A stretch of 64,000 nucleotides of DNA from contig NC_008278.1 in assembly GCF_000058485.1 (NCBI RefSeq), positions 4,086,962 through 4,150,961 of the forward strand. The letters are read 5' to 3'. The notes under the pieces are model-generated. The model worked only from the letters and a program-made list of their open reading frames with translations, was not told the DNA's origin and did not search any database. Source of the DNA: Frankia alni ACN14a. GTDB taxonomy: Bacteria; Actinomycetota; Actinomycetes; Frankiales; Frankiaceae. Each line of letters opens with the position of its first letter. The first letter of the stretch is position 1. Positions 4,738 through 53,559 of the stretch are shown here, in pieces. The translations under genes and the position numbers were made by a program.

Positions 4738-5675
4738 TGATCCAGGTCCTGCTGGACATGCTGGTCACCGGCCTGCCGCTGGTGCCGGTGTTCCTCGGCA
4801 TCTACACCGTCTTCCGCCTTCGCGCCGACTTCGACCTCACCGTGGAGGGCAGCTTCGTCACCGGCGGCGCGGTGTGCGCGCTGACGCTGGTGCACGGCTG
4901 GCCGAGCTGGCTCGCGCTGCTGGCGGGGACGGCCGGCGCGGCCGCCGCCGGCGCCGTCACGGCGCTGATCCACCTGCTGCTGCGGGTTCCGGTGCTGCTC
5001 GCCGGGCTGGTGATGAGCATCGGGCTGTTCAGCGTGAACCTGCACGTGCTCGACACCCCCACGCTGAGCCTCGGCACGCGGGGGACGCTGTTCAGCGGCT
5101 TCGGGTCGCTGTCCGGCCGTCAGGCCGACCTTGCCACCTCCGGGGTGATGGCCGGGGTCGTCGCCGTGGTGCTCGTCGCGTTCGGCCTGTTCCTGCGCAC
5201 CGAGCTGGGCCTGGCGCTGCGCGCCACCGGTGTCAACGCGCGGATGGCCCGCAGCCAGGGCGTCAACGACCGCCGCCTGACCGTGCTGGCGCTCGTGCTC
5301 GCCAACGGGCTGGCCGGGCTCGGCGCGAGCCTCGCCGTGCAGTACCAGGGATACGCCGACGTCAACATGGGCGCGGGCACCTTCGTCGCCGGGGTCGGCG
5401 CGGTGCTGCTCGGCGAGCTGTTCGTCCGGCCGTCCGGGTCGAAGCTGCTGCGCATCGTCGGCTGCGTCCTGGTCGGCACACTGGCCTACCGGCTGGTCCT
5501 GGTCGGTGCGCTGCGGGTGGGGCTGCCCGCGGGCGACCTGCGGGGGGTCACGGCGCTGACGCTGCTCGTGGCGATCGCCGCCGAACGCTACCTCGGCGTG
5601 CTCGGCGGCCTCGCCCGCACGCTCGCCCACACCACCCGCTCGACCAGCACCGCCGTCCGGCAGGAGGCCGCCTGA
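4737..5675 (+). CDS. TrpY-type ABC transporter permease
   Basis: 312 residues with about eight strongly hydrophobic segments. MIQVLLDMLVTGLPLVPVFLGIY leads into DLTVEGSFVTGG, a motif shared by permeases that work with ABC_sub_bind proteins and related to the LivH/RbsC permease fold. The ATG overlaps the upstream stop by one base (TGATG), and its own stop overlaps the ATPase start in the same way, which indicates translational coupling. It forms the membrane channel of the importer. One permease gene implies a homodimer in the complex. Confidence 0.86.
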   Translation: MIQVLLDMLVTGLPLVPVFLGIYTVFRLRADFDLTVEGSFVTGGAVCALTLVHGWPSWLALLAGTAGAAAAGAVTALIHLLLRVPVLLAGLVMSIGLFSVNLHVLDTPTLSLGTRGTLFSGFGSLSGRQADLATSGVMAGVVAVVLVAFGLFLRTELGLALRATGVNARMARSQGVNDRRLTVLALVLANGLAGLGASLAVQYQGYADVNMGAGTFVAGVGAVLLGELFVRPSGSKLLRIVGCVLVGTLAYRLVLVGALRVGLPAGDLRGVTALTLLVAIAAERYLGVLGGLARTLAHTTRSTSTAVRQEAA

Positions 5676-6475
5676 TGCTGCGACTGGCCGACATCGACCT
5701 GATCTACAACGCCGGGCGCGCCGACGAGGTCGTGGCGCTGCGCAACCTCAACGTCACCTTCGACCGCGGGCAGTTCGTGACCGTCGTCGGCACGAACGGC
5801 GCCGGGAAGTCGAGCCTGATCCAGACGATCTCCGGCGCGGCCCGCCCGACCCGCGGCCGGGTTCACCTCGACGGCCGCGACGTCACCCGGCTGCCCGACC
5901 ACCGCCGTGCCGGCTGGATCGCCCGGGTCTTCGACGATCCGCGGGCGGGCACCGCGCCGGAGCTGTCCATCGAGGACAACCTGGCGCTGGCGATGGCCCG
6001 CGGGCGGGCGCGCGGGCTGCGGTTCGCCGTGACCGCCCGGCGCCGCGCCGTCATGCGCGAGCACGTCGCCGGCCTGGGTCTGGGGCTGGAGAACCGGCTC
6101 GCCGACCGCGTCGGGCTGCTCTCGGCGGGCCAGCGTCAGAGCCTGACGATGGTGATGGCCGCCCTGAGCGCCCCGTCGGTGCTGCTCCTCGACGAGCACC
6201 TGGCGGCGCTGGACCCGGGCACGACCGCCACCGTGCTCGCGCTGACCACCGAGCTGGTGCGCGAGCTGGGCGCCACCACGGTCATGGTCACCCACAACAT
6301 GGATCACGCGCTCGCCCTGGGCGACCGGCTGCTGGTGATGAGCCGGGGACGGGTGATCGCCGACTACGACGGGACGGAGAAGTCCGAGATGACGGTAGGC
6401 GGGCTGATCGACAGGATCACCGGCGCCGGGGACGCGCTGAGCGACCGCAGCGCGCTGATCGAGAAGGTCGCCTGA
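5675..6475 (+). CDS. TrpZ-type ABC transporter ATP-binding protein
   Basis: 266 residues. Walker A GTNGAGKS (39-46), signature LSAGQ and Walker B LLLDEH followed by the D-loop LAALD are all present, with the switch histidine in VMVTHNMDHA, so ATPase function looks intact. His directly after the Walker B Glu is typical of the TrpZ-like subgroup rather than of LivF/LivG. The gene overlaps both neighbours by one base (TGATG) and powers the importer made with the two preceding genes. Confidence 0.9.
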   Translation: MLRLADIDLIYNAGRADEVVALRNLNVTFDRGQFVTVVGTNGAGKSSLIQTISGAARPTRGRVHLDGRDVTRLPDHRRAGWIARVFDDPRAGTAPELSIEDNLALAMARGRARGLRFAVTARRRAVMREHVAGLGLGLENRLADRVGLLSAGQRQSLTMVMAALSAPSVLLLDEHLAALDPGTTATVLALTTELVRELGATTVMVTHNMDHALALGDRLLVMSRGRVIADYDGTEKSEMTVGGLIDRITGAGDALSDRSALIEKVA

Positions 6476-7683
6476 TGACGACCACGGCGGGAGTCGGCCA
6501 GACCGAGATCGGCCAGACGGAGATCGGCCAGACGGAGGGCGCGCAGGTCGGCCAGACCGAGGCCGGGCTGGTGGCGGCCGGGCTGGTGGCCGCGGAGAGG
6601 GGCGACCCGATCGCCGGGCGGTTCCCGACGCTGACGGAGATCCGCGCGGCGGCGCAGGCGGTGCTGCCCCGCGACGTGTGGGACTTCCTCGCCGGCGGCG
6701 CCGGGCAGGAGACGACGCTGCGGGCCAACCGCGACGCGTTCGGCGGCTGGCAGTTCCGTCCCCGGGTCATGAGCGGCCACCCGGTGCCGTCGACCGCGAC
6801 CACCGTGCTCGGCCTGCCGATGCGCCTGCCGGTGCTGACGGCGCCGTTCGGCACCGACGGGTTCTTCGACACCGACGGCCACCTGGCCGTGGCCCGGGCG
6901 AACGCCCGGTGCGGGACGCTGAGCATCGTCCCCGAGGCGGGCACCCACTCGATCGAGAGCGTCGCCCAGGCCGCGCCCGCCGCGGCCCGTGTGGCGCAAC
7001 TGCACCCCATGGGCACCGAAGGCAACTTCGTGCGCATGCTGGAGCGCATCGAACGCGCCGGCTACGCGGCCGTGTGCGTGACCGTCGACTGCCCGACCGC
7101 CGGGTGGCGCGAGCGCAACCTGCGCAACCGCTTCACCGTCGACCTGCGGATGATCACCGGCAACTACCCGCCGGGCGGCGACGTCGCCGCCCAGGACGTC
7201 TTCGGCCAGCTCTTCGCCCGCGACGAACCCGTCTGGACCTGGGACCGGCTGGCCGGGCTGATGCGCCACACCGACCTGCCGTGGATCGCGAAGGGCATCC
7301 TCACCGCGCAGGACACCCGCGCCGCCATCGACGCCGGCGCCGCCGCCGTCCTCGTGTCCAACCATGGCGGACGCCAGCTCGACGGCACCCCTGCCGCGCT
7401 CGACCAGCTCCCCGAGGTCGTCGCGGCCGCCGACGGCCGCGCCGAGGTCCTGCTCGACAGCGGGGTGCGCTGCGGCACGGACGTCGTGAAGGCCCTCGCC
7501 CTCGGTGCGCGCGCCGTGGTCATCGGCCGGCTGGCCGCCGCCGGGCTGGCCGCGGGCGGCGAGGCCGGGGTGGCCCGCGTGCTGACCCTGCTGCACGAGG
7601 AGATGGTCACCGTGCTGACCCTGCTTGGGCACGGCTCGGTGACCGAGCTGACCCCCGCGGCCCTGCAACGGAGCCGGCCGTGA
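6475..7683 (+). CDS. FMN-dependent 2-hydroxyacid oxidase/dehydrogenase
   Basis: 402 residues. Member of the lactate oxidase, glycolate oxidase and hydroxymandelate oxidase family (FMN_dh): oxidises an L-2-hydroxy acid to the 2-oxo acid. The catalytic signature SNHGGRQLDG is intact, with active-site His297 and substrate-binding Arg300; DVWDFLAGGAGQETTLRAN and KGILTAQDT are also typical. The first 35 or so residues are unusual: four GQTE units encoded by a 15-bp repeat, then LVAAGLVAAE, probably a disordered extension. It is translationally coupled to the importer ATPase and followed by RidA, so it likely oxidises the imported compound or a product of it. Exact substrate unknown. Confidence 0.88.
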   Translation: MTTTAGVGQTEIGQTEIGQTEGAQVGQTEAGLVAAGLVAAERGDPIAGRFPTLTEIRAAAQAVLPRDVWDFLAGGAGQETTLRANRDAFGGWQFRPRVMSGHPVPSTATTVLGLPMRLPVLTAPFGTDGFFDTDGHLAVARANARCGTLSIVPEAGTHSIESVAQAAPAAARVAQLHPMGTEGNFVRMLERIERAGYAAVCVTVDCPTAGWRERNLRNRFTVDLRMITGNYPPGGDVAAQDVFGQLFARDEPVWTWDRLAGLMRHTDLPWIAKGILTAQDTRAAIDAGAAAVLVSNHGGRQLDGTPAALDQLPEVVAAADGRAEVLLDSGVRCGTDVVKALALGARAVVIGRLAAAGLAAGGEAGVARVLTLLHEEMVTVLTLLGHGSVTELTPAALQRSRP

Positions 7684-7751
7684 TCGCCGTAGTGTCCGGC
7701 CAGCTTCCCCGGAGCCGGCCGTGATCACGAGGGTGCCCGGCCAGCTCCCGT
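7670..7751 (+). repeat. 41-bp imperfect tandem duplication over a stop/start junction
   Basis: Units 7670-7710 and 7711-7751 share an identical first 16 bases (ggagccggccgtgatc) and an internal cggccagct. Each copy carries a GTGATC start: the first overlaps the stop of the oxidase gene (GTGA), the second is the start used by RidA. The first copy now opens only a 14-codon reading frame ending at 7724. Confidence 0.8.
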
Positions 7752-8110
7752 CGATCTCGGGCGCCGCCGGCCACGGCGACCTCGTCGTCACCTCCGGCGT
7801 GATCTGCCCCGACCTGCTGCGCCCCGGCCTGACGCCCGCCACCACCCCGGACGTCCGCCAGCAGATCGACGGCGCCCTGGCAGCGCTGCGCGACGTCCTG
7901 CGCGCGGCCGGCAGCGACCTGCGCTACGCGCTGCGGGTGGAGGCGTTCCTGGCCCGCCCGGCGGACTTCCCGCTGTGGGACAGCGCCTTCACCGCGGCCT
8001 GGCCCGCCGACCCGCCGGCGCGGACCACTCTGGTCACCGGCTTCGCGCTGCCCGTCGTGCTCGTCGAACTCCAGGCGATCGCCGTGCGCGCACCCGCGGC
8101 GGCGCCGTAG
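7721..8110 (+). CDS. RidA-family (YjgF/UK114) protein
   Basis: 129 residues from GTG 7721. RidA proteins hydrolyse reactive enamine/imine intermediates released by PLP enzymes or amine/hydroxyacid oxidases, yielding 2-oxo acids. The start GQLPSISGAAGHGDLVVTSGVI, the conserved Arg in PARTTLV and the C-terminal LVELQAIAV match the family, and length is normal. It follows the FMN oxidase in the same operon, consistent with clearing an unstable product of oxidation. The true start was set by a local duplication (7670-7751) that separates it from the oxidase stop. Confidence 0.85.
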   Translation: MITRVPGQLPSISGAAGHGDLVVTSGVICPDLLRPGLTPATTPDVRQQIDGALAALRDVLRAAGSDLRYALRVEAFLARPADFPLWDSAFTAAWPADPPARTTLVTGFALPVVLVELQAIAVRAPAAAP

Positions 8111-8203
8111 CGCCGACCACGGCGCAGGCGCGCCGGGTGCTGCGCCGCGAACCGGGCTGGCACGAGCCTGAACAGGACGAGTCGGCGGGGGAAGACTGTG
8201 GGG

Positions 8204-8617
8204 ATGGAGGTTCTCAGCAGTCGGATTCTCATCAGGCCGGTCGACCCGGGGCGTAGCCGGCGGTTCTACCGGGACACCCTGGGGCTGGCGATCTACCGGG
8301 AGTTCGGGCCGCCGGACGATCCCGGCCTGGTGTTCTTCCTCGGGCAGAGCCTGCTGGAGGTCTCCGGCCGCGCCGAGGAGCCGACCGGTGGCGGTGCGGG
8401 GCGGGTGCGCCTGTGGCTGCAGGTGCGCGACCTCGCCGCCGAGCACCACCGGCTCGCCGCCGCGGGTGTTCCGATCGTCCGCGACCCGCAGCGGGAACCG
8501 TGGGGGCTCGACGAGATGTGGATCGAGGACCCGGACGGTATCCCCATCGTCGTCGTGGAGATCCCGCCCGAGCACCCGCTGCGCCGCGACCAGCGTGGGG
8601 CTCGGACCGAACCCTGA
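8204..8617 (+). CDS. VOC/glyoxalase-fold protein
   Basis: 137 residues from ATG 8204, 9 nt after a GGGGGAAG Shine-Dalgarno; an in-frame GTG at 8198 would add two residues. The fold signature is RPVDPGRSRRFYRDTLGLAIYREF, then LWLQVRDLAAEHHRLAAAGVPIV and EMWIEDPDGIPIVVVEIP, the two-part beta-alpha-beta-beta-beta layout of the vicinal oxygen chelate superfamily. Members are dioxygenases, isomerases or resistance proteins; the function cannot be read from sequence. It lies 93 bp after RidA on the same strand and may be the last gene of that operon. Confidence 0.75.
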   Translation: MEVLSSRILIRPVDPGRSRRFYRDTLGLAIYREFGPPDDPGLVFFLGQSLLEVSGRAEEPTGGGAGRVRLWLQVRDLAAEHHRLAAAGVPIVRDPQREPWGLDEMWIEDPDGIPIVVVEIPPEHPLRRDQRGARTEP

Positions 8618-14989: not shown

Positions 14990-15041
14990 CGGCCTGCCCG
15001 CGCCACGTGATCCAGACCGGTCGAGGCACGGACGGCCTGGG

Positions 15042-15069
15042 CGCGGCGCCGCGGAACACCAGGATCACC
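15042..15069 (-). repeat. Dispersed repeat, copy 1 (GTGTTCCGCGG core)
   Basis: On the minus strand this reads gatcctggtgttccgcgg followed by cgccgcgc. Close matches lie at 30697-30723 and 55538-55565 on the plus strand. All three copies are intergenic. Confidence 0.6.
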
Positions 15070-15095
15070 GTTGTTGCCGCGCCCGGCAGCAGGGC

Positions 15096-15113
15096 GCGGT
15101 TCCGCGGAACCGC
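15096..15113. repeat. Perfect 18-bp palindrome
   Basis: gcggttccg/cggaaccgc is fully self-complementary and contains the same TTCCGCGGAA core as the dispersed repeat 27 bp away. It could be a protein-binding site or a remnant of a second repeat copy. Confidence 0.65.
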
Positions 15114-15278
15114 AGGCGGGGCTCGGGGTCGGGGTCGGGGTCGCAGACGAAGGCGCCATCGTGTCAAACGCGCCGGGCCGGGCCGACCACCCCACCTCGG
15201 GGAGTCGGCCCGGCCCAGGGCGAGGCGCGCCGGCCGGAGCCGGCTGGCGTCAGGTCCCGCGGACGGGACCCGACGGGG

Positions 15279-16538
15279 TCACTTGGCGCCGGCGGTAAGG
15301 ATCTTCTGGCCGTCGTAGGACCTGCCCGTGGCGAGGAAGGTCTTCTTCGCCGGGTCCCAGCGCTGCCCCAGCAGGGTGTTGTTGAACAGCCGGGTCAGCC
15401 CGGGAACCGGGTTGGGCTTGGTGAAGTCCAGCGGCGGGACGAGCTGCAGGTCCAGGCCCTTGGTCTGGTTGAGCTGCGCCAGCAGGGACTTGGCGGTGAG
15501 GTCACCGGTGACCTTCTTGCCGACCTGCTCGACGATCTGCACCGCCAGCCAGCCGCCGATGGTGGAGGTGGAGTGGCGCAGGTTCTTCGCCGCGTCGGAG
15601 TCCCCGGCGGCGAAGTCCGCGTCGAGCTCGGACTGCAGCCGGGTCAGCTCCGGGTACTTCGCGCTCTGGTTGAGCAGCGGGAACGCGCCGACGGCGTAGA
15701 AGTTCTTCGCGGCGGGCCCGAGCTTGACCAGGTTCGCGTCCGAGATGGTGCCCGCGGCGTGGCAGTAGCTCAGTTTGTCCCCGCCGGCCTGGATGAGGCC
15801 GATCGAGCTGGGCTCGGCCAGGCCCATCGTGACGCCCTGGGCGCCGGCGTCGGTGATCCGGGCCGCGACGGGAGCGTAGTCGCTCGTCGTCACCGGCACC
15901 TTGATCTCCTGCGTGCCGACCCCGGCGGACTTGCCGCCGAGCCCGGCCAGCACCCCGAGGCGGGCGGCGGCGGCGATGTCGTAGTTGACGACCCCCATCT
16001 TGCTGATCTTGGCGGTGTCCTTGAGCAGCGGCGCGCAGACGGCCTCGTAGTACGTCGACGCCGGCTGGTAGACGAAGCTGATCTTCGAGGTGAGGTCCGA
16101 GCCGTCGCCGGCGATGCCCGAGGCGCCGATGCTGGGAATCCCGGCCTTCTCGAGGATGGCGTTGATGCCGCCCGCGGTGCTGAAGGCGGAGACGACGGCG
16201 AGGTACTTGCCGTTCACCGCCTTCTGGGCGCAGGCCTCGCCCGCGGCCTGGTCGTTCTTCGAGTCGCACACGTCGATCTGCACGGGATGGCCGTTGATGC
16301 CGCCGCGCTTGTTCAGCGCGCGCACGGCGGCCTTGGCCGCTCCGGCCTGCTCCGGGAAGTTCGTCGTCGGCGTCGTCAGCGGCACGATGGACAACAGCTT
16401 CACCGGGCTGGCCTTCGGGCCGTCCGCGGCCGGCGACGACTCCCCCGTCGTTCCGGACGAACCACACGCGGCCAGGGCCAGCGTGGCCCCCACCGCCAGC
16501 GCCGCCATCGCGCTTCTGGACCGCATCGTCTTCCTCAT
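15279..16538 (-). CDS. Branched-chain-amino-acid-type ABC substrate-binding lipoprotein
   Basis: 419 residues from ATG 16538; ATG 16526 is an alternative with AGGAAG before it. The signal ends in lipobox LAAC (Cys25), so it is a surface lipoprotein. The body follows the Peripla_BP_6/LivK plan: VKLLSIVPL, AAKAAVRALNKRGGINGHPVQIDVCDSKNDQAAGEACAQKAV, then IPSIGASG and a C-terminal WDPAKKTF. It is the last gene of a six-gene directon with a LivHMG fusion, LivF, P450 and ferredoxin, and is the second binding protein there. Family members bind amino acids, amides, aromatic acids or urea, so the ligand is open. Confidence 0.88.
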   Translation of the reverse strand: MRKTMRSRSAMAALAVGATLALAACGSSGTTGESSPAADGPKASPVKLLSIVPLTTPTTNFPEQAGAAKAAVRALNKRGGINGHPVQIDVCDSKNDQAAGEACAQKAVNGKYLAVVSAFSTAGGINAILEKAGIPSIGASGIAGDGSDLTSKISFVYQPASTYYEAVCAPLLKDTAKISKMGVVNYDIAAAARLGVLAGLGGKSAGVGTQEIKVPVTTSDYAPVAARITDAGAQGVTMGLAEPSSIGLIQAGGDKLSYCHAAGTISDANLVKLGPAAKNFYAVGAFPLLNQSAKYPELTRLQSELDADFAAGDSDAAKNLRHSTSTIGGWLAVQIVEQVGKKVTGDLTAKSLLAQLNQTKGLDLQLVPPLDFTKPNPVPGLTRLFNNTLLGQRWDPAKKTFLATGRSYDGQKILTAGAK

Positions 16539-16620
16539 CTCTTGCCCGAACCCACTCTCAACTCGCAACTCGCCGCCGTTCCTCCACCCCGCCGGGGCGC
16601 TCCGCACCCCGCCGGGGGCT

Positions 16621-16815
16621 CTACACCCCGTCGAGCAGCACGGCCCGCTCCGGGCAGGCCTCCGCCGCGCGCCGGGCCAGCTCCACCCGGTCGGCCGGCA
16701 CGTCCGCGACGGTCACCTCGCCGTAGCCGCTGTCGTCGTCGGTGAACAGCTCGGGGGCGAGGTCGTAACAGCGGCCGTGCCCCTGGCAGCGGGCGGTGTC
16801 GATCGTGAGCCTCAT
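16621..16815 (-). CDS. Single-cluster ferredoxin with His at the variable position
   Basis: 64 residues. Cys10, Cys16 and Cys54-Pro frame one iron-sulfur cluster; the second cysteine position of the usual CxxCxxC is His13 (CQGHGRC). Such ferredoxins are known from mycobacteria and Rhodopseudomonas, hold a 3Fe-4S or His-ligated 4Fe-4S cluster and donate electrons to cytochromes P450. The ATG overlaps the P450 stop codon by 4 bp (ATGA), so it is the dedicated redox partner of that P450. A ferredoxin reductase gene is not in this cluster. Confidence 0.9.
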   Translation of the reverse strand: MRLTIDTARCQGHGRCYDLAPELFTDDDSGYGEVTVADVPADRVELARRAAEACPERAVLLDGV

Positions 16816-18059
16816 GCCTGCCCCGCGTCCGTCGGCCAGGTCAGCGCCAGCGAGTCCAGGCCGCGCAGTGTCGAGCCGTTCCAGGTGATGCTCGCCCCGG
16901 GCGCCAGGGAGTACTCGGGGATGAGCCGGTGCCATTCGCGCAGGACGGTGCGCAGCTCCATCCGGGCCAGGTGGGAGCCCAGGCAGCGGTGCGGGCCGCC
17001 GCCGAAGGCCAGGTGCCGCTTGTCGGCCCGGTCGAGGTCGACGACGCCGGCCCGCGGGTCCGCGTCGGGGTCGAGGTTGCCCGAGGCCAGCATCACGTGG
17101 ACCATCTCGCCCTTCCGAACCGGGCAGCCGGCGACCTCGGTGTCACGGGTGACGATCCGCGGGACGGCCATCACCGGGGTCTCCCAGCGCAGCAGCTCCT
17201 CGACGATGGCCGGGATCGTCTCCGGGTCGGCGACGATCCGCTGCCGCGCCTCGGGGTGCTCCAGCAGGTAGGCGAGGATGCAGGTGAGGCTGATGGTGAC
17301 GGTGTCCAGGCCGGCCATCATGAGCATGAAGCAGATCCCGAGCAGCTCCGGCTCGGTCAGCGGCCGGCCCTCGATCTCGGCCTTGAGCAGCTCGGTGATG
17401 AGGTCGTCGCGGGGCTCGGCGCGGCGCTGCGCGAGGACCGTCCCGAACAGGGTGAACACCTGCGTGCCGGCCTCGGTCTGGATCCGCAGCTTCTCGTCGG
17501 GGTCGTCGGTGAGCGACTCCGGCCGGATCAGCGCGTCCTTCATGTGCAGCAGGCCCGGCAGTTCGGACTGCGGCAGCCCGAACAGGGTGAGGAACACCGA
17601 GCAGGGCAGCGGGACCGCGAGGTCGGTGGCGAAGTCGCAGCTGCCGCGGTCGAGGAAACTCTCGATCGTGGCGACCGTGTTCGCCACGACCTCGGCCTCC
17701 AGGGCGGCCATCCGCCGCGGGGAGAACAGCGGGTCGAGGATGCGCCGGTACTTGGCGTGGTCGGGCGGGTCGACGCCCATCGGGATGGCGGGCAGCGGGC
17801 TGCTCATCAGCTCGGGGATGAGGTTGGAGAACACCTCGGGGTTGCGCAGGACCTCGTCGATCTCGGCACGGCGCAGGATCTGGATCCAGCCCTCGTGCCC
17901 CTCGTCGTAGTCGACCGGGCATTTCGCCCGCAGCCGGGAGAAGTAGGCGCGCGGGTCCTCGGCGCGCTGGCGTTCGAACTCGAGCCAGTCCAGCGTCGCG
18001 GCCCGCAGGCCGTGGCCGCCGTCGGCGGGCGCCGCCGCGCCCGCGGTGTCGTCTGGCAT
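16812..18059 (-). CDS. Cytochrome P450 monooxygenase
   Basis: 415 residues from ATG 18059. All hallmarks are present: I-helix oxygen-activation motif MMAGLDTVT, K-helix EELLR (ExxR) and haem loop FGGGPHRCLGSHLAR with the iron-ligand Cys359. It is soluble, with no membrane anchor. It needs two electrons from a ferredoxin, which is encoded immediately downstream with a 4-bp overlap. The substrate is not predictable, but its place between importer genes and a second binding protein suggests that it hydroxylates the imported compound. CYP family number cannot be given without a search. Confidence 0.93.
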   Translation of the reverse strand: MPDDTAGAAAPADGGHGLRAATLDWLEFERQRAEDPRAYFSRLRAKCPVDYDEGHEGWIQILRRAEIDEVLRNPEVFSNLIPELMSSPLPAIPMGVDPPDHAKYRRILDPLFSPRRMAALEAEVVANTVATIESFLDRGSCDFATDLAVPLPCSVFLTLFGLPQSELPGLLHMKDALIRPESLTDDPDEKLRIQTEAGTQVFTLFGTVLAQRRAEPRDDLITELLKAEIEGRPLTEPELLGICFMLMMAGLDTVTISLTCILAYLLEHPEARQRIVADPETIPAIVEELLRWETPVMAVPRIVTRDTEVAGCPVRKGEMVHVMLASGNLDPDADPRAGVVDLDRADKRHLAFGGGPHRCLGSHLARMELRTVLREWHRLIPEYSLAPGASITWNGSTLRGLDSLALTWPTDAGQA

Positions 18060-18167
18060 GTGCTGTTCCTCCAGGATCAGTGGGACTTCCGCCCGGGGCA
18101 CGGACGGGGGCGATCGGGCCAGGCAGAAGGAAGATGGTCTGGCAGGCGGGCTGTCGGACACGCCGGC

Positions 18168-18228
18168 GATCAGGTCAGCCGGCTGGCGGCCAGGCGCGTG
18201 GATCAGGTGAGCGGGCTGTCAGGCCAGG
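18168..18228. repeat. Imperfect direct repeat at the 3' end of the LivF gene
   Basis: 18168-18194 (gatcaggtcagccggctggc...) and 18201-18228 (gatcaggtgagcgggctgtc...) are near copies offset by 33 bp. The second includes the LivF stop codon (complement of 18219-18221). Confidence 0.6.
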
Positions 18229-18896
18229 TAGCCCTGTTCGACGAGCGCCGGGTCCGCGCGGGCCTCGGCGGCTGGTCCGGACCAGCGGACCCGCCCGCGG
18301 CTGAGCACCACGGCCCGGTCCGCGACCCGCAACGCCGCGCGGACGTGCTGCTCGACGAGCAGCACGGCCAGCCCCTCGTCGGCGGCGGCGCGCAGGGCGC
18401 CCAGCAGACGAGCCACCACCTGCGGGGCGAGGCCGAGCGAAAGCTCGTCGGCGAGCAGCGCCACCGGCCGCCGGGCCAGTACCCGGGCCAGGGTGAGCAG
18501 CTGCTGCTGGCCGCCGGAGAGCAGCCCGGCGCGGCGATCGAGATGCTCGGTGAGCTCGGGGAAGTCGGCCAGCGCGGACTGCGGGTCGACGCCGCCGATG
18601 CGCAGGTTCTGGCGGACGGTCAGCGACGGGGTGACGGCCCGCTCCTCGAGCACGACGCCGAGGCCCTGCCGGGCCCGCCGGTGCAGCGGCGCCGTGGTCG
18701 GCTCCCCCTGCCAGGTGACGGTCCCCTCGCTGGGGGTCAGGGCGCCGGCCAGCGCCATGAGCGTGGTGGTCTTGCCGGCGCCGTTCGGGCCGAGCAAGGC
18801 CACCACCTCCCCGCGGGCGACCTCGAGGTCGAGCCCGGCCACGACGGGCCCGGCGCCGTACCCGACGGCAAGTTGGCGGCATCCGACGACGCTCAC
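18219..18896 (-). CDS. LivF-type ABC ATP-binding protein
   Basis: 225 residues from GTG 18896. Walker A GPNGAGKTT, signature LSGGQQQ, and a slightly deviant Walker B ending VALLADELSLGLAP are present, along with the LivF hallmark VLLVEQHVRAAL. It pairs with the LivG domain of the upstream fusion protein to form the ATPase heterodimer of a branched-chain-amino-acid-type importer. Its start overlaps the fusion gene's stop by 4 bp (GTGA). The P450 gene follows after 159 bp. Confidence 0.9.
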   Translation of the reverse strand: MSVVGCRQLAVGYGAGPVVAGLDLEVARGEVVALLGPNGAGKTTTLMALAGALTPSEGTVTWQGEPTTAPLHRRARQGLGVVLEERAVTPSLTVRQNLRIGGVDPQSALADFPELTEHLDRRAGLLSGGQQQLLTLARVLARRPVALLADELSLGLAPQVVARLLGALRAAADEGLAVLLVEQHVRAALRVADRAVVLSRGRVRWSGPAAEARADPALVEQGYLA

Positions 18897-21800
18897 CTGG
18901 CACCTCCAGCCACCGGCGGCACCGCCGCCGCCTCGCCGACCGGCACGGCCAGCGCCGCACCGTCCTTCCCGTCCCCGACCGCTGTATCGCCGGCCGAGCC
19001 GTTCCCGGCTCCGTCGCCGGCCGTCTGCTCCGGTGCGCTGGCCTGGGCCACGACGATCTCCTCCTCGGGGCCGCCGGCGCCCACTCCGTCCGCGGCGGCT
19101 CCATCGCCCCCCGCGGCGGCCTCATCCCCCACCGCATCCCCCACCGCCGGCGACTCCTCGACGAGAGGCTCGTCCGCCGGCGCCGACGACCCCGCCGCGG
19201 CAGCCTGCGCCACCGCCACCGCCACCGCCGCCGCCGCCGCCGGCGGATCGTCGGCCGGAGGGGTCTCGGTGTCGCTGCCCGCCTGGTCGTCGGCGGTGCT
19301 GTCCGCGGTCGGTTCGTCGGGGTGGCCGAGGTAGGCGGCGATGACGGCGGGATCGGCCTGGATGTCCGCCGGCGCGCCCTCGGCGATCCGGCGGCCGAAC
19401 TCGAGGACCACCAGCCGGTCGCAGACTCCCATGACGAACGGCATGTCGTGCTCGATGAGCAGGACGGCGATCCCCCACTCGTCGGCCAGGCGGCGCACGA
19501 GCACGGCCAGCTCGGCGCTTTCGCGCTCGTCGAGACCGGCGGCCGGCTCGTCGAGCAGCAGCACGGACGGCGCGGTCGCGACGGCGCGGGCGATCGCCAC
19601 CAGCCGGCGGCGCCCGTAGGACAACGCCGACACCGGCGTGTCCAGCGCGTCGGCCAGGCCGAACTCGCGGACCGCGGCCTGGGCGGGGGCGCTCAGCGGG
19701 CGGTTGCCCGGCCAGACCAGGCCGGTGACGTAGGCGGCGAGGTCGCGCGGGTCGCTGGCGGCGCGCAGGTTCTCCGCGACGGTGAGGTCCTCGAACAGTT
19801 CGAGGTTCTGGAACGACCGGCTCACCCCCGCCCGCACCCGGCGATGCGCCCGCAGCCCGTCCAGGCGGGTGTCGCCCACCCGGACCGTGCCCGCCGCCGT
19901 CGCCGCGTACCCGGTGATGGCGTCGATGATCGTCGTCTTGCCGGCGCCGTTGGGACCGATGAGCCCGACGACGGTGCCCGGCGCCACCTCGAACCCGACG
20001 CCGTCCACGGCGACGACTCCGCCCCAGCGCACCGTGACGTCCTCGACGGTCAGCGTCGCCGGCCGCACCCGCAGCGCCTGCGGCGCGGCCACCGCGTCCT
20101 GTGGGGGCGCCGACTCCGCGGTGGCCGGGACGTCGGCCTCGACCGCCGCCCCCTCGACCGCCGCCTCCTCGGCCGCCGCCTCCTCGGCCGCCGCCTCCTC
20201 GGCCGCCACAGCCTCGGCCGGTGCCTCGACGACGGGTGCCGCCGCGGGCGCGGGGCCGGCGAGTACGGCGTCGGAACGACCCAGCCGGGCGGCGACGAGG
20301 ACGGGCAGCGGCAGGCGGGCCCGGCCGGCCAGGCCGCCGGCGAGCCCCGTGCCTCCGGAGCGGATCAGCACCAGCAGCAGGATGATCCCGCCGATCAGCG
20401 GCAGGTAGCGGTCGATCTCGCGCAGCCAGTCGGTGAGCCGGTCACCGAACAGCACGCCCAGCACCGCGAGGACGACCAGGGCGCCGGCCGGCAGCCAGCG
20501 CGTCCACCGGGCCGCACCGACCTTCCCGAAGCCGCCGACCTGCCCGGACGCACCGACCTGCCCAGAGGCGCCGACCGTCCCAGCCGCACCGGCCAGCCGG
20601 GACCGGTCGACCTGGCCGCGGGCGAGCCCGCCGAGCCCGTACCCGAGCAGGCCGGCGAGCACGGCGCCGACGGTGCGCGGCAGCACGGTGGAGCCGCCGA
20701 AGCGGTCGGACAGCCAGCCGGCGAGCTGCTGACCGAGGGTGGCGGGGGCGAGCAGAGCGCCGATCCCGGCGCCGCTGATGTAGCCGACGCCGCCGACGAC
20801 GGCGTAGGCGACGACGAGGATGCCGGTGAACGGCAGGAAGTCCCCGTCGTCGTAGCTGATGTTGCGGTCGGCGAAGGCGAGCAGCACGCCACCGAGCCCG
20901 GCGATGGCCGCGGACAACCCGAAGGCGTAGATCTTCGCCGCGAACACGCTGATGCCCAGGGACGCCGCCGCTCGTTCGTTGGTGCGCACCGCGATGAGCC
21001 GCCGCCCGGCCCGGCCGCGGCGCACCGCGGACACCGCGAGCCCCGCGAGCAGCAGCAGGATCAGCGCCAGGGTGGCGTAGGCGCGCGGGTCGTCGGTGCG
21101 GTCGACCGGGATGCCGAGGAAGTGCAGCGGGGCGTCGGCGGTGGCGACGACGGTGCCCTGCTGGTCGAGCACGCCCCCGAAGATCGAGGAGCTCTGGCCG
21201 TCCGCGGGGGGTGAGGAGTAGCCACGCTGGAACAGGATCGCGCTGACGGTGACGCCGAGCCCCAGGGTGACCACGGCGAGCTGCAGGCCGCGGGTGCGCA
21301 GCGCCGGCAGGGCGAACAGCACGCCGACGGCGGTGGTGGCCAGCACACCGACCACCAGGGCGGCGGCGAACGGCCAGCCCTCGGCCGCCACCAGGCGTCC
21401 CGCGACGAGCGCGGCGATGCCGGCCAGCGCGCTCTGGGCCAGCGAGAGCTGGCCGGCGTAGCCGACGAGGACCACCAGTGACAGCAGGATCAGCGCGTAC
21501 CCGGACTGGATGGCCACCGCGTTGACCCACGGATCGGGCAGCACCAGCCAGACGAGCGCCACCAGCAGGGCGAACCCGCCGACCAGCACCGGGAGGTTGA
21601 TCGCCCCGGAGCCGAGCGGCGGACGGTCCTCGGCCTGGTGGGCGCGGTCGGGGATGCCGCTGCCCCGCGCGACGAGCAACGCGATGATGACGACGACCGG
21701 CAGGGCGCTGTCGAGCCCCTGCGCCCAGTCGTGCGGGCCGGTCAGATGCACCTGGAGCTGGAGTTCGACGAGCGCCAGCAGCAGCCCGCCGACGAGCGCG

Positions 21801-22519
21801 AGCGGGAACGAGCGGAACCCGGCGGCGAGCGCGACCGCCAGCGCGGGGACGACCAGCAGGACCAGGCTCGTCGACGACAGCGGGTTCTGCAGCGGGGCGA
21901 GCAGGACACCGGCGAGGCCCGCGAGCACCCCGCCGCCGAACCAGCAGGCCCCGGCGACCACGTCGGCCGACCAGCCGAGGGTCGCCGCCGCGGCCGGCCC
22001 CTCGGCGACGGCGGTGGTGACCGCCCCGGCGGTGGTGGACCGGAAGAACGCCCACAGCGCGGCGACCAGGACGACGACCACGCCGAGGCGGACGAAGACG
22101 TGCACCCCGACCGGCTTGCCGAACACCTCGACGACGGACTGCGGCAGAAACGACGGCACCGAGCGGCTCTGCCCGCCGAAGGCCAGCACCACCGCGGCCT
22201 GTAGGACGATGAGCAGGCCCAGCGTGGCGACGACCCGGTTGAGCGGCGCGGCATGGCGCATCGGGCGCAGCACCGCGGCGTGGAACAGCAGCGCGACCGC
22301 CCCGGTGAGCACGACGACGACGACGGCGGCGAGCGCGGTCGGCAGCCCCCACCCGTCACCGGCCTCGTGGAACAGATAGGCCGCGAACATCACCAGCGCG
22401 CCCTGCCCGAGGTTCAGCACTCCGGAACCCCGGTGGATCAGTACCAGACCTGCCGCCACAAAGGCATACAGCGCACCGGTCCCGAGACTGATGACGGCGT
22501 ATCCAAGAAAGCTGCCCAC
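18893..22519 (-). CDS. LivH-LivM-LivG fusion: two permeases plus ATPase in one chain
   Basis: 1208 residues, where normal systems use three proteins. Residues 1 to about 293 are a LivH permease (GTGALYAFVAAGLVLIHRGSGVLNLGQGALVMF). About 306-645 are LivM (GYALILLSLVVLVGYAGQLSLAQSALAGIAA; YISGAGIGALLAP), followed by two extra hydrophobic segments (about 680-725). A linker with EEAAA repeats, coded by a 15-bp tandem repeat near 20160-20210, leads to LivG (about 815-1070): Walker A GPNGAGKTT near 852, LSYGRRR, LLLDEPAAGLD. The last about 135 residues are Ala/Gly/Asp-rich, without a known domain. Coupled to LivF by GTGA. Covalent fusion fixes subunit stoichiometry. Confidence 0.9.
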   Translation of the reverse strand: MGSFLGYAVISLGTGALYAFVAAGLVLIHRGSGVLNLGQGALVMFAAYLFHEAGDGWGLPTALAAVVVVVLTGAVALLFHAAVLRPMRHAAPLNRVVATLGLLIVLQAAVVLAFGGQSRSVPSFLPQSVVEVFGKPVGVHVFVRLGVVVVLVAALWAFFRSTTAGAVTTAVAEGPAAAATLGWSADVVAGACWFGGGVLAGLAGVLLAPLQNPLSSTSLVLLVVPALAVALAAGFRSFPLALVGGLLLALVELQLQVHLTGPHDWAQGLDSALPVVVIIALLVARGSGIPDRAHQAEDRPPLGSGAINLPVLVGGFALLVALVWLVLPDPWVNAVAIQSGYALILLSLVVLVGYAGQLSLAQSALAGIAALVAGRLVAAEGWPFAAALVVGVLATTAVGVLFALPALRTRGLQLAVVTLGLGVTVSAILFQRGYSSPPADGQSSSIFGGVLDQQGTVVATADAPLHFLGIPVDRTDDPRAYATLALILLLLAGLAVSAVRRGRAGRRLIAVRTNERAAASLGISVFAAKIYAFGLSAAIAGLGGVLLAFADRNISYDDGDFLPFTGILVVAYAVVGGVGYISGAGIGALLAPATLGQQLAGWLSDRFGGSTVLPRTVGAVLAGLLGYGLGGLARGQVDRSRLAGAAGTVGASGQVGASGQVGGFGKVGAARWTRWLPAGALVVLAVLGVLFGDRLTDWLREIDRYLPLIGGIILLLVLIRSGGTGLAGGLAGRARLPLPVLVAARLGRSDAVLAGPAPAAAPVVEAPAEAVAAEEAAAEEAAAEEAAVEGAAVEADVPATAESAPPQDAVAAPQALRVRPATLTVEDVTVRWGGVVAVDGVGFEVAPGTVVGLIGPNGAGKTTIIDAITGYAATAAGTVRVGDTRLDGLRAHRRVRAGVSRSFQNLELFEDLTVAENLRAASDPRDLAAYVTGLVWPGNRPLSAPAQAAVREFGLADALDTPVSALSYGRRRLVAIARAVATAPSVLLLDEPAAGLDERESAELAVLVRRLADEWGIAVLLIEHDMPFVMGVCDRLVVLEFGRRIAEGAPADIQADPAVIAAYLGHPDEPTADSTADDQAGSDTETPPADDPPAAAAAVAVAVAQAAAAGSSAPADEPLVEESPAVGDAVGDEAAAGGDGAAADGVGAGGPEEEIVVAQASAPEQTAGDGAGNGSAGDTAVGDGKDGAALAVPVGEAAAVPPVAGGAR

Positions 22520-22684
22520 AGCACCACCCCAGCCCGAACTCTAGCAAGTTCGATCCGCACCGAGAACCGGTCGATTGCTTTCCTCGACACCGCCGGCCGT
22601 CATGTCGACGCGCCGCCCGCGCCTGCGCAGGGCCACACCATAGCGCGGCTAGCACCTGTCAACGCACGGGTCCGGTTTCCCGCC

Positions 22685-23905
22685 TCACTCACCGGTGCTG
22701 AAGCGTTGGCCGCAGAGCGGCTGCGGGCTGGCGACATCAAAATGGTCACCGCTTTCGGCGACCCGGACGAAGTCGAAGCACGGGTCGAGCCGACCCTGAT
22801 CGGTGGCGTAATTGATCTTATTGACCAGCATCCCGTCGGCATCGTAGTCGGTCACCCCACGCAGGCCCTTCATGTAGGACTCCCGCGTAGGACAGCCATG
22901 CTGAGTCTTCAGGCCACGGATGAACAGATCCGCGCTCAACCAGCCGATGATGGCACTCTGCTGGCCGGGCGGGGAGACCTCCGGAGAGTAGTCCGCCATC
23001 GCCTGCAGGAACCGGCGCTGGACCGGCCGGTGGCGTTCCAACGCGGCGTAGGAGAGCGACGCGTAGGTGCCGGCGAGCTGCCGCCCGTAGGGGGCGAGCA
23101 GGCGCGGGTCGTAGCTGACGGCGGACACGGCGACCTTGAACGGGTGCCCGGCACTGACGGCTGCGTCCAGAACGCCGGTGTAGAGGTCGAGCGGTGCCGC
23201 GGCGATGATCGTGTCGGCCCCGGAGGCGATGATTTTGCGGGCGACGTCGGCGGCGTTGGTGCCGTCGACGTCCTGGGTGACCGCGTCGATGCCCGCGTGC
23301 TGCAGGCTCTTCGTCACTCCGTCCGCGTAGAGCTTGGCGGTCTCGCTGAGAAAGCTGACGACGACCGCGGCCCTGGTGCCACCCTGCTGGCGGACGAAGT
23401 CGCCGATCGTCGTCGTGCTCTGCCCCGTCTGGGTGGTCAGGATGACGGTGAAGGTGTTGCGGTGTGCCGCCCAGCCGGGCTGGTCGGCGGCGCCGATCAC
23501 CGGCACTCCCACCTCGTCGAGGTAGGCGACGGACTGCTGGGACACCGCGGTGTACTGAATGACGGCGAAGGCGTTCTGGGCGACCAGGCCACGGGCGCCC
23601 TGCAGGTTGCCGCGGGGGTCGGACTGATCGTCCTGCCAGGCAAAGTCGATCTTCCGACCGTCGACGCCGCCGGCGGCGTTCTCGACACCGAAGCGGGCGC
23701 TCACACCTGCCCGGTAGCCGGTGAACTGAGCGGCCATCACCCCGGTGTCCGGATAGAGCAGACCTACTTTGATCGAGCTGTCGGTCACACCGGGAGCACA
23801 CGAACCGGACGCGGAACTTCCGCTCTCCGTCGCATCGCCGGAGCTACAGGCCGCCAGCATCAGCACCGCAGCGACCGCCGCCACGCCCAGTCTCGTGCGC
23901 TTCAC
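22685..23905 (-). CDS. Branched-chain-amino-acid-type ABC substrate-binding lipoprotein (first gene of directon)
   Basis: 406 residues. Lipobox LAAC puts the lipidated Cys at 20. SSIKVGLLYPDTGVMAAQFTGYRAGVSARFGVENAAGGVDGRKIDFAWQDDQSDP is the LivK/Peripla_BP_6 start, followed by FAVIQYTAVSQQSVAYL and VVSFLSETAKLYADGV. It is 165 bp upstream of the permease-ATPase fusion on the same strand and is the likely primary binding protein. It is clearly different from the other binding protein at the far end of the directon, so the transporter may accept two ligands. Confidence 0.9.
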   Translation of the reverse strand: MKRTRLGVAAVAAVLMLAACSSGDATESGSSASGSCAPGVTDSSIKVGLLYPDTGVMAAQFTGYRAGVSARFGVENAAGGVDGRKIDFAWQDDQSDPRGNLQGARGLVAQNAFAVIQYTAVSQQSVAYLDEVGVPVIGAADQPGWAAHRNTFTVILTTQTGQSTTTIGDFVRQQGGTRAAVVVSFLSETAKLYADGVTKSLQHAGIDAVTQDVDGTNAADVARKIIASGADTIIAAAPLDLYTGVLDAAVSAGHPFKVAVSAVSYDPRLLAPYGRQLAGTYASLSYAALERHRPVQRRFLQAMADYSPEVSPPGQQSAIIGWLSADLFIRGLKTQHGCPTRESYMKGLRGVTDYDADGMLVNKINYATDQGRLDPCFDFVRVAESGDHFDVASPQPLCGQRFSTGE

Positions 23906-25380
23906 CCGTCAAAGCCGCCTCTCGATCGCGCCGAGGTTTCCCGAGCCCGCGACCATCCCACTGTTCTGACGAATTTCCGCCCGGCCACGCAAGCGCGATC
24001 GGGTATCGGACTCGGCCAGCGAAGTCGCTGCCGGAACCGTCACAACTGCATGGCACGTCAACGTCCACACCAGATCAGTGCGGACGACATGCCTCACGGC
24101 AGCACAACAGTCAGTACAGGTCCGATCCTTCGGTGTCTTCACTGAACGATCACGGATTTTGTCGACGGAAACGTACCAGGCGGGACGCACACCAGAACCA
24201 ACCGGGGGGTGCTCTCCGTATCCCGCCCACACCCTTAGACAGCCGCCTCAAGAATTCACAACGAGTCCCATCCGACCTGCCCTGTGACGCGTCCGCCCCG
24301 CTCACCCGACGGTGACGCGGGGCCACCCGCCACCCCATCACGCCATCGATCTGTATACGGACGATCCCGGGAGGGACAACGTTCGGCGCAGCGGGCACGA
24401 CGATCCGCGCCCAAGAGCGCGCCTGCCCCGGCGAACGCACCGGCACCCGACCGCCCCCGACTGCCGGCCGAACGGTGCACGGGCCCGCGACGTGGGGCGA
24501 TCCGTCGGCGCGGCGGTCCCGCCGCCGCCGAGATCTTCGTCGGGCCGACCCCGGGACCCCATCCCGATACCACTTGTCTCCGGATGGACAATGGCGGGCG
24601 GACGGCGAGCCACCGTCCGGCGAGAAGAACACGCCCGGACCGGGCGCCACACCCACCCCGCCTGCGGACCGGGCGGCGATCGGCGGGTCCGCACGACGTG
24701 TGGATCCGCACCAACAGTGAGCTAGGTCATAGTCGATCCCGCCTCGCCGCGGCGTATCCCCACCGGCGGCAGCAGGCTGCCGCCGGACCGCGGTTCGGAT
24801 GCCCCGATCGGTCCGTTGACCTGCCATTGGCGCGGATTTAGTGTGGAAGCGTGCAGCTCACTCCGTGGCCTACGGCCGGCGCGTCCGCGTGCGCCTGCGT
24901 GGAGGGTCGCGACGACCAGCCACGTCTGCGGCGTCGGCGTCACGTCGACTTCGGGCACAGCAACAGCGATCTCTGTCGCCCCTGCCGCTGAGTCACCCCG
25001 CCCCGGTCACTCTCGCCCGCGAGCGCCCGCGCCGGTCCGCCCCGGGAAGGCCTGCTCGGTGCCGATGCCACTGTCGTGAGCATTGCGGGCCCCTGCGCCC
25101 TACCGAACGGCGCGTCCCGCACGGTCGCCGCGCGCCCGGCCCCGCGGGGTGGCCCGCCCCCTGGTGACACGTCCGCCTCCAGCCGGCGCCCCCTGCCGCC
25201 CGTAGCGGCGTCGGTGGCCCTGACCAGCACGTGTCCGGTCCCCCTCTACCCGGCTTCCAGCGCCCGAGCTCCCAGCCACAGGCCGCGGCCCACCCCCGGA
25301 GCCGGACTCCTGCCGCCACCGGCCCGCGGCGAGCCTGCCCGCCGGGCACGGCCGCCGCCCAGAGCACGGTCCCGCTGCTC
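23906..25380. other. Gene-poor 1.5-kb intergenic region
   Basis: Between the divergently oriented binding-protein gene (starts 23905) and flavin reductase (25479). Many overlapping open frames exist on both strands, but none has a recognisable domain, a plausible Shine-Dalgarno or consistent codon use; they look like chance frames in GC-rich DNA. The part next to 23905 is less GC-rich and should hold the directon's promoter. Confidence 0.55.
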
Positions 25381-25478: not shown

Positions 25479-25997
25479 ATGACCGCCTCGCTTCGCCAGA
25501 CCCAGGGAGCCACCAGGGCGCGCGCCGTCGACGGCGACCTGTTCCGGACCGTCTTCCGGGGTCACCCGGCGGGCGTCGCCGTCATCACGACGGACGCCGG
25601 CGTGGGACCGGTCGGCTTCACCGCGACCTCGCTGGCGTCGCTGTCCGCCGAGCCCCCGATGGTCGTCTTCGCGATCTCGTCGAGCGCGTCGGCCTGGCCG
25701 CACCTGCGCACCGCCGACACGTTCGTCGTCAACCTGCTCTCCTCGGAGCAGGAGGAGGTCGCCCGCCGCTTCGCCCGCAGCGGCATCGACCGGTTCGCCG
25801 CACCGACCCGCTGGAGCGCACTGCCCACCGGCGAGCCGCTGCTCGACGGCGGCCGGGCCTGGCTGCGCTGCGCCACCCGCCCGCCGATCGAGGCCGGCGA
25901 CCACTTCCTCATCGTCGGCCTGGTCCTGGAGGCGGCGACCGATCCCGCCGCGGCCCCGCTGATCTACCACGACCGCACCTTCCACGCCCTGCCCTGA
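25479..25997 (+). CDS. Flavin reductase-like (FMN-binding split-barrel) protein
   Basis: 172 residues. FRTVFRGHPAGVAVITTDAGVGPVGFTATSLASLSAEPPMVVFAISSSASAWPHLRTADTFVVNLLSSEQEEVARRFA matches the flavin reductase-like domain used as the small component of two-component monooxygenases (HpaC type), which supplies FADH2 or FMNH2 to a separate oxygenase. Length is normal. No monooxygenase large subunit lies next to it, so its partner must be elsewhere or it reduces free flavin for other purposes. A tandem repeat precedes it and a strong hairpin follows. Confidence 0.87.
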   Translation: MTASLRQTQGATRARAVDGDLFRTVFRGHPAGVAVITTDAGVGPVGFTATSLASLSAEPPMVVFAISSSASAWPHLRTADTFVVNLLSSEQEEVARRFARSGIDRFAAPTRWSALPTGEPLLDGGRAWLRCATRPPIEAGDHFLIVGLVLEAATDPAAAPLIYHDRTFHALP

Positions 25998-52782: not shown

Positions 52783-53559
52783 TCAGGGCGTCGGCTGGGC
52801 GCCGCGCGCGGCGGCGAGGCCCGCCGTCACCGCCTCCACCACGGCGCCCTGCTGGTCGGACAGGTAGAAGTGGCCCCCGGGGAACACCTTCACCTCGAAC
52901 GGCCCGGTGGTGTGCCGGCGCCAGAGCTCGGCCTCGGCCTGCGTCACCCTCGGATCGGAATCCCCCACCATCGCGACGACGGCCGTGCTGATCACCGCGT
53001 CGTCCGGCGCGGAATACGTCTCGATCGCCTGATAGTCGGCCCGGGTCGGCGGCAGCACCATCTCGACGAGTTCCGGATCGGCGAGAACCCGCGGATCGGT
53101 CCCGCCGAGCTCACGCATCTCCCGGAGAAAACCCGCGTCGTCGCGGCGGTGGACGTCCTCGAACCGTGTGGTCGACGGGGCGCGGCGCCCGGAGGCGAAC
53201 AGCACGAACGGTGCCGGCCCGCCCGCCGCCGCCAGCCGGCGGATGACCTCGAAGCCGACGATCGCCCCCATGCTGTGCCCGAAGAAGGCCAGGGGCCGGT
53301 CGGTGAGCGGGGTGAGGACCTCGGCGATCCGGTCGGCGAGCGGCGCGATGGCCGTGTGCGCCGGCTCCGTCCGCCGGTCCTGCCGTCCCGGATACTGCAC
53401 CGCCTGGACCTCGGCGACCGACGACAACGCCTTCGAGATCGCCAGATAGGTGCTTGCCGCCCCGCCCGCGTGCGGGAAACACACCAGCCGCGGGGCGTCG
53501 GGCGGACCCGGATGAAACCGCCGCAGCCACCGGTCGACCTCAGCCGACACGGTCATCAC
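52783..53559 (-). CDS. Type II thioesterase (alpha/beta hydrolase)
   Basis: 258 residues (GTG 53559; ATG 53556 directly follows). LVCFPHAGGAASTYLAISKAL, VQAVQYPGRQDRR, FFGHSMGAIVGFEVIRRL with nucleophile Ser in GHSMG, VVAMVGDSDPRVT with the acid, and FPGGHFYL with the His are the standard GrsT/RifR type II thioesterase motifs. These enzymes remove wrong acyl groups from polyketide or non-ribosomal peptide carrier proteins. No synthase gene is in the window, so it is an orphan TEII or edits a synthase encoded elsewhere. An MFS exporter lies upstream on the same strand. Confidence 0.92.
   Translation of the reverse strand: MMTVSAEVDRWLRRFHPGPPDAPRLVCFPHAGGAASTYLAISKALSSVAEVQAVQYPGRQDRRTEPAHTAIAPLADRIAEVLTPLTDRPLAFFGHSMGAIVGFEVIRRLAAAGGPAPFVLFASGRRAPSTTRFEDVHRRDDAGFLREMRELGGTDPRVLADPELVEMVLPPTRADYQAIETYSAPDDAVISTAVVAMVGDSDPRVTQAEAELWRRHTTGPFEVKVFPGGHFYLSDQQGAVVEAVTAGLAAARGAQPTP

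Follow-up and report, generated by a model that had tools for sequence, protein, structure and literature searches.

A row of six minus-strand genes, here termed cassette A, is encoded within a 64,000-nucleotide stretch of the single-contig Frankia alni ACN14a genome of 7,497,934 bases (the window; G000:C1:4086962-4150961), and combines an ABC importer of the branched-chain amino acid type (Liv type) and two solute-binding proteins, BP1 and BP2, with a cytochrome P450 and a ferredoxin. It is proposed, with a probability of about one half or marginally above it, that cassette A constitutes an uptake-and-oxidation unit, in which a transporter is joined to an oxygenase. According to this proposal, the six genes would be co-transcribed, BP1 and/or BP2 would capture a small organic compound on the outer side of the membrane, and the fused protein LivHMG together with the second ATPase LivF would import it. 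Subsequently, the P450, receiving electrons by way of a His-type [3Fe-4S] ferredoxin and of a reductase whose gene lies elsewhere, would hydroxylate the imported ligand or a downstream intermediate and thereby catalyze an entry step of catabolism.

In the direction of transcription the genes follow one another as BP2, LivHMG, LivF, P450, ferredoxin and BP1, all on the minus strand. The first-pass annotation had described six minus-strand genes with this order and with overlaps at two junctions, and both open frames and Pfam matches across 15279-23905 confirm it: LivHMG and LivF share the four nucleotides GTGA (18893-18896), and the P450 and ferredoxin genes share ATGA (16812-16815). Judging from the sequence, the P450 probably starts at ATG 18059 behind GGAGG, which yields 415 amino acids, and BP1 probably at ATG 16538, which yields 419. 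The other three junctions are gaps of 165 nt (BP2-LivHMG), 159 nt (LivF-P450, 18060-18218, if ATG 18059 is used) and 82 nt (ferredoxin-BP1). Both binding proteins look like lipoproteins because each carries a lipobox (LAAC). A directon of six genes is, by itself, ordinary by chance. Terminator-like matches between 15000 and 24400 amount to 2 on both strands versus 1.6 expected, and the single minus-strand one is situated inside BP2.

The plan of cassette A recurs in ACN14a outside the window as cassette B, in which LivHMG-LivF ... P450-ferredoxin-binding protein likewise share one strand, the same two pairs of genes overlapping by 4 nt. Unlike cassette A, it features an importer of another lineage, an inserted CoA ligase gene and an inserted short-chain dehydrogenase/reductase (SDR) gene, a single binding protein, and a GTGA instead of an ATGA overlap between P450 and ferredoxin. 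Identity between the counterparts is 31% for LivH, 33% for LivM, 41% for LivG, 46% for LivF, 42% for the P450 and 62% for the ferredoxin, and is weak for the binding proteins. In the LivF tree, B falls outside the group that holds A, and a joint clade of A and B is rejected (p-value of the approximately unbiased test, p-AU, 4.4e-5), hence the importers of the two cassettes have separate origins, and simple descent can hardly account for a plan that recurs with a different importer. Cassette B, which was sought solely via P450 matches and the loci drawn from these, is found in five of the six genomes that carry cassette A (G000, i.e., ACN14a, and G003, G004, G010 and G011), not in the fragmented G009. 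It is followed by MaoC-like, FAS1-type dehydratase and phosphotransferase genes on the opposite strand and, in its own orientation, by a luciferase-like gene. Between its CoA ligase and SDR genes (L229 7569-7790), short tandem repeats of the ccgccaccgcactg type are present. Positions of both cassettes are given in Table 1.

Table 1. Genes of cassettes A and B in ACN14a. Positions of cassette A are those of the window; positions of cassette B genes are local to locus L229, which lies outside the window.
Feature	Position	Strand	Remarks
BP2, Liv-type solute-binding lipoprotein, first gene	22685..23905	-	Peripla_BP_6 E 6e-66; lipobox LMLAAC
LivHMG, 1208-amino-acid frame	18893..22519	-	Pfam BPD_transp_2 x2 + ABC_tran + BCA_ABC_TP_C
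LivF, second ATPase	18219..18896	-	Pfam ABC_tran
Cytochrome P450	16812..18059	-	Pfam p450; probable start 18059, open frame to 18161
Single-cluster ferredoxin	16621..16815	-	Pfam Fer4_15; His in cluster motif
BP1, second Liv-type solute-binding lipoprotein	15279..16538	-	Peripla_BP_6 E 3.5e-33; probable start 16538, open frame to 16607
Cassette B locus L229	G000:C1:3640000-3659999	+	outside window
LivHMG-B	L229 2221-5190	+	
LivF-B	L229 5187-5951	+	GTGA overlap with LivHMG-B
CoA ligase of B	L229 5985-7568	+	
SDR of B	L229 7906-8700	+	named by Rossmann motif and similarity, not Pfam
P450-B	L229 8766-9953	+	
Ferredoxin-B	L229 9950-10180	+	CVGHGLC; GTGA overlap with P450-B
BP-B	L229 10318-11556	+	

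A further line of evidence concerns the genome-wide vicinity of P450 and Peripla_BP_6 genes. Once split Pfam pieces were merged or dropped (27 to 23 for P450, 38 to 37 for binding proteins), 23 P450 and 37 Peripla_BP_6 genes remained in ACN14a, and chance was estimated by rotating one set against the other or by local shifts within 500 kb; the resulting p-values are uncorrected for the several distances. At a distance of up to 2 kb, 4 of the 23 P450 genes have a Peripla_BP_6 neighbor versus 0.45 expected (p 0.003), or 0.80 by local shifts (p 0.009); the P450 of cassette B is one of the four. Leaving out cassette A, the count is 3 of 22 versus 0.40 (p 0.012), or 0.69 locally (p 0.042). The closest paralog of BP2 (65-68% identity) is located near another P450 in all six genomes (L153 9042-11820, L192-L196). 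In four of these it directly adjoins a ferredoxin/P450 pair, and in the other two, one or two called frames stand between and no ferredoxin was called; LysR and APC-type permease genes are each present at five of the six loci. Since the paralog and the P450 are arranged tail to tail, they do not form one operon. At L228, a third binding protein faces a P450 gene in the same tail-to-tail fashion, with genes for acyl-CoA dehydrogenase and CoA ligase close by. Moreover, in genome G027 (L247) a Liv set with a binding protein occurs near a 44% relative of the cassette A P450 along with SDR, luciferase-like and amidohydrolase genes, in a row that is interrupted by plus-strand frames between SDR and P450, and a locus in G030 (L246) resembles it by tblastn; both repeat the plan in a looser form.

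The P450 displays the features of class I enzymes, namely the heme-Cys loop FGGGPHRCLG, ELLR as the ExxR motif and the acid-alcohol pair of the I-helix in AGLDTVT, and its closest relatives in the PDB are CYP143, CYP125-type and CYP101 enzymes. PDB matches of the ferredoxin include the putative ferredoxin 4id8 (HaPuxC) and the FdxE-CYP143 fusion 8amq. Its motif CQGHGRC...CP fits the CXXHXXC(X)nCP pattern of the FdxE type. For FdxE of M. tuberculosis, PMC9868604 gives this motif, a [3Fe-4S] cluster and pairing with CYP143. The gene overlap suggests that the P450 and the ferredoxin of cassette A would work together. In its P450 motifs, the overlapping ferredoxin gene and the CXXHXXC(X)nCP motif, the Frankia pair resembles both CYP143-FdxE and 4id8 of R. 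palustris; unlike these, it sits inside an importer directon, and no reductase gene was found adjoining it. On the plus strand, divergent from cassette A, a flavin reductase-like gene occupies 25479-25997.

As to the importer, two BPD_transp_2 domains, ABC_tran in LivG and LivF, and Peripla_BP_6 in BP1 and BP2 place it in the Liv/HAAT class, presumably TC 3.A.1.4, and BCA_ABC_TP_C is located at residues 1043-1068 of LivHMG; the curated cut-offs of NCBIfam are not reached by LivG, LivF and the binding proteins of cassette A. Its permease domains, LivG- and LivF-type ATPases and Peripla_BP_6 binding proteins are those of the branched-chain amino acid type. In contrast to the usual Liv/HAAT arrangement, cassette A fuses H, M and G, possesses two dissimilar binding proteins and includes a P450 and a ferredoxin in the directon. 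Assigning a ligand from structure was abandoned, as the AlphaFold2 models are too poor (mean predicted local distance difference test score 50.0 for BP1, whose alignment had 11 rows, and 55.5 for BP2, whose alignment had 10). Likewise, none was assigned from sequence, where PDB relatives are weak (best E 4e-6 for BP1 and 6e-9 for BP2; 4.5e-7 with the BP1 profile) and their annotation is mixed. The BP1 profile carries Ile at the position that corresponds to the ligand-contacting Thr102 of LivJ. A carboxylic acid or some other carbon compound of plant or soil origin would be a likelier substrate than a standard amino acid, a preference that stems by analogy from the CoA ligase and SDR genes inside cassette B, the nearby MaoC-type gene and the catabolic surroundings of P450 relatives.

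Close orthologs of the P450 (90-95% identity) are present in 6 of 13 Frankia genomes, comprising ACN14a, QA3 (G004), F. torreyi CpI1 (G011), F. tisae (G010), F. gtarii (G003) and AiPs1 (G009). Five carriers hold the six genes in identical order on one contig, with BP2 of F. gtarii cut by the contig end; in AiPs1 they are spread across two contigs, and LivHMG is adjoined by a binding protein with 78% identity to BP2. An additional tandem copy of BP2 occurs in F. torreyi and F. tisae. In the latter, the copy adjoining LivHMG (L065 2956-4173) contains one in-frame TAG and the tandem copy is open, an instance of turnover among the binding proteins of this locus; alignments A3 and A4 omit the row that has the in-frame stop.

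The next relatives of the P450 (47-51% identity) belong to G029, G030, G032 and G033 (one other genus, same family) and to three actinobacterial metagenome-assembled genomes (MAGs), and in the tree the P450s of G030, G032 and two MAGs form a group with that of cassette A (support 100/99). Thiolase, hydroxyisobutyrate-type dehydrogenase, SDR, luciferase-like, amidohydrolase and second P450 genes are found near the G032 P450 (L079), and enoyl-CoA hydratase and CoA-transferase genes near that of L068. Around the P450s of the MAG loci L067 and L074, further P450/ferredoxin matches are all that is readable. Taken together, the closest P450 relatives with readable surroundings belong to catabolic clusters. 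The open reading frame caller used for neighbor loci is a heuristic on third-position guanine-cytosine content that misplaces some frames; tblastn or Pfam underlies the principal conclusions.

The importer of cassette A has an old paralog in the core Liv locus of the Frankiaceae, to which BP1 is 45-51% and LivHMG 51-55% identical and whose copies are 82-89% alike among three Frankia compared. In ACN14a this locus (L152 9638-14252; G000:C1:6081637-6086251) also encodes a fused LivHMG, 53% identical to that of cassette A, which shows that such a fusion is not unique to the cassette. At E 1e-40, BP1-type genes were detected in 29 of 35 Frankiaceae genomes and, at E 1e-60, in 23 of 296 class genomes sampled, corresponding to 4 of 114 genera, all within the Frankiaceae. 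In the LivF tree, LivF of cassette A (LivF-A) groups with the core LivF of the Frankiaceae; it is 65-72% identical to the core LivF of five Frankia and thus the most similar to it among the ACN14a LivF genes compared, the next of which reaches 61-65% identity to core LivF. Of the 29 genomes that possess a BP1-type gene, 23 were surveyed for LivF at the core locus, with the carriers G003 and G009 as well as G029 excluded from the counts owing to contig ends or, in G009, a 2.5-kb gap beside LivG. LivF adjoins LivG in 14 of 16 judged non-carriers, where G005 is counted as positive though its contig ends inside LivF. On the contrary, the core locus lacks LivF in all four assessable carriers (G000, G004, G010 and G011), as it does in G001 and G024.

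Within the window, a plus-strand row at 3679-8617 comprises genes for an ABC_sub_bind-type binding protein, an ABC ATPase, an FMN-dependent dehydrogenase, a Ribonuc_L-PSP protein and a glyoxalase family protein, with the dehydrogenase frame sharing one base with the ATPase frame, and thus represents a second importer-oxidase neighborhood.

Several observations weigh against an uptake-and-oxidation unit and have to be set beside the evidence above. Conserved synteny, which the first-pass annotation had called for, holds in 6 of 13 Frankia genomes, yet these form one close clade, which makes synteny alone weak evidence. The plan of the importer-P450 module is supported independently by its recurrence in cassette B; the exact form of cassette A was found in that clade only. 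None of the seven next P450 relatives checked has Liv genes immediately adjoining; at L082 the P450 has a LivF-like match and a binding protein of the Liv type 6-8 kb away, and at L080 a binding-protein match about 7 kb away. For the P450s, the fairer test does not reject shared ancestry of the two lineages (p-AU 0.108), a test of A and B as one clade being trivial when their sister rows are left out; the P450 halves of the cassettes may therefore lack independence. A scan of 15000-24400 gave no match to a sigma-70-like promoter. The gap between LivF and the P450, which is shorter in F. torreyi than in ACN14a, holds two elements retained in all six carriers, GGAGGAACA and the identical 10-nt block GTCCGTGCCC about 46 nt upstream of the P450 start, with the remainder mostly variable. 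A separate promoter is therefore possible, and the block could be a regulatory site or part of a promoter, which would count against one simple transcript. A Pfam scan of 26 frames of the window returned no gene of the ferredoxin reductase families. The suggestion of two related ligands finds no support, since BP1 and BP2 are 25% identical and differ in their closest relatives.

The neighbor statistics are likewise limited in reach. In ACN14a, the excess has p 0.036 at 5 kb and is not significant locally (p 0.12), and at 8 kb p is 0.098 (local 0.33). In two other closed genomes there is no excess at 2 kb. For G028 (71 P450 pieces reduced to 64 genes, 91 binding-protein pieces to 90), 4 of 64 P450 genes have such a neighbor versus 2.5 expected (p 0.24), with 10 versus 5.8 at 5 kb (p 0.08) and 17 versus 8.6 at 8 kb (p 0.017; local 0.076). 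For G031 (24 reduced to 21 and 28 to 25, four binding-protein rows below cut-off being among these), the count at 2 kb is 1 of 21 versus 0.29 (p 0.25), with 3 versus 0.42 at 3 kb (p 0.014; local 0.035) and 4 versus 1.07 at 8 kb (p 0.038; local 0.094). Hence, tight pairing of P450 and binding-protein genes is established for ACN14a only, and a looser pairing is suggested in G028 and G031.

Alternatively, the genes might be neighbors without a shared pathway, i.e., a duplicated Liv importer, importing an unrelated amino or organic acid, and a P450/ferredoxin pair might stand side by side by descent from an ancestor of the F. alni clade. The confinement of the synteny to relatives with 90-95% identical P450s, the TetR and MFS flanks that are also retained in the four other genomes whose contigs extend that far, the richness of ACN14a in both kinds of genes (23 and 37), and the missing 2-kb excess in G028 and G031 all accord with it. 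Nevertheless, such an explanation is rather unlikely; it is opposed by cassette B, which repeats the LivHMG-LivF-...-P450-ferredoxin-binding protein order with another importer, and by the BP2 paralog, which in 6/6 genomes is no more than two genes away from a P450. The P450 might instead tailor a signal or secondary metabolite, with the importer bringing in a precursor or retaking the product. Many class I P450s act in biosynthesis, which counts for this alternative, as does a thioesterase-domain gene elsewhere in the window (52783-53559); neither the six genes nor the flanking frames scanned include a biosynthetic core gene, however, and the P450 relatives with readable surroundings stand in catabolic clusters, which renders it improbable.

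The state of the core locus raises another alternative. With the core importer devoid of its own LivF in the assessable carriers, some LivF encoded elsewhere must serve it, and LivF-A may thus serve two importers in the F. alni clade, which weakens the notion of a dedicated importer put forward in the first-pass annotation. Taken further, cassette A would be a general importer unit whose LivF-A mainly supplies the missing ATPase to the core importer as well, with the P450 pair appended. The contrast between 4/4 carriers without core LivF and 14/16 assessable non-carriers with it favors this possibility, as does the 65-72% identity of LivF-A to the core LivF of five Frankia. On the other hand, G001 and G024 are devoid of the core LivF and yet do not carry cassette A, so the loss does not need the cassette, and further LivF-type genes exist in the ACN14a genome; overall, this explanation is very improbable.

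Returning to the uptake-and-oxidation unit, a wider generalization can be put forward tentatively, namely that Liv importers may have been joined to P450/His-type-ferredoxin pairs more than once in Frankia, that importer, binding protein, P450 and ferredoxin may thereby make up a recurrent cassette, that the ligand of the binding protein may predict the P450 substrate, and that one LivF may power two importers in the F. alni clade. In descriptive terms, cassette A can be likened to camABCD of Rhodococcus jostii RHA1, where an ABC importer is tied to the catabolism of a hydrophobic acid in an actinomycete; camABCD imports cholate metabolites, and the term 'P450' does not occur in the corresponding paper (PMC8399759). 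PMC9477822 was discarded as a precedent, as it contains P450 genes without any occurrence of 'ABC transporter' or 'branched-chain'. Coordinates of other genes in PMC10252897 place the cassette at approximately FRAAL37xx, which is too coarse for the nodule proteome tables of PMC8951365; PMC5768760 yielded no match, and the statements of PMC10520049 were left unassigned. FRAAL4206, listed in PMC10252897 as a P450 gene at 4571703, coincides with a P450 match at 4571799 in the genome analyzed here, in line with its assignment to ACN14a. In the open-access literature no description of this importer-P450-ferredoxin gene combination was found, which is weak evidence of absence. Cassette A hence consists of known pieces in an arrangement not found described in that literature.

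Many bacterial P450s are without a known substrate. If the binding protein of an operon does share its ligand with the P450, a simple binding screen would yield candidate substrates, and orphan P450s of the Frankiaceae could be matched to substrates by screening neighboring binding proteins. For such a screen ACN14a offers two importer-P450 cassettes and two further P450-binding-protein neighborhoods. Moreover, if true, the proposed function would bear on what an alder-nodule Frankia takes from its plant or from the soil.

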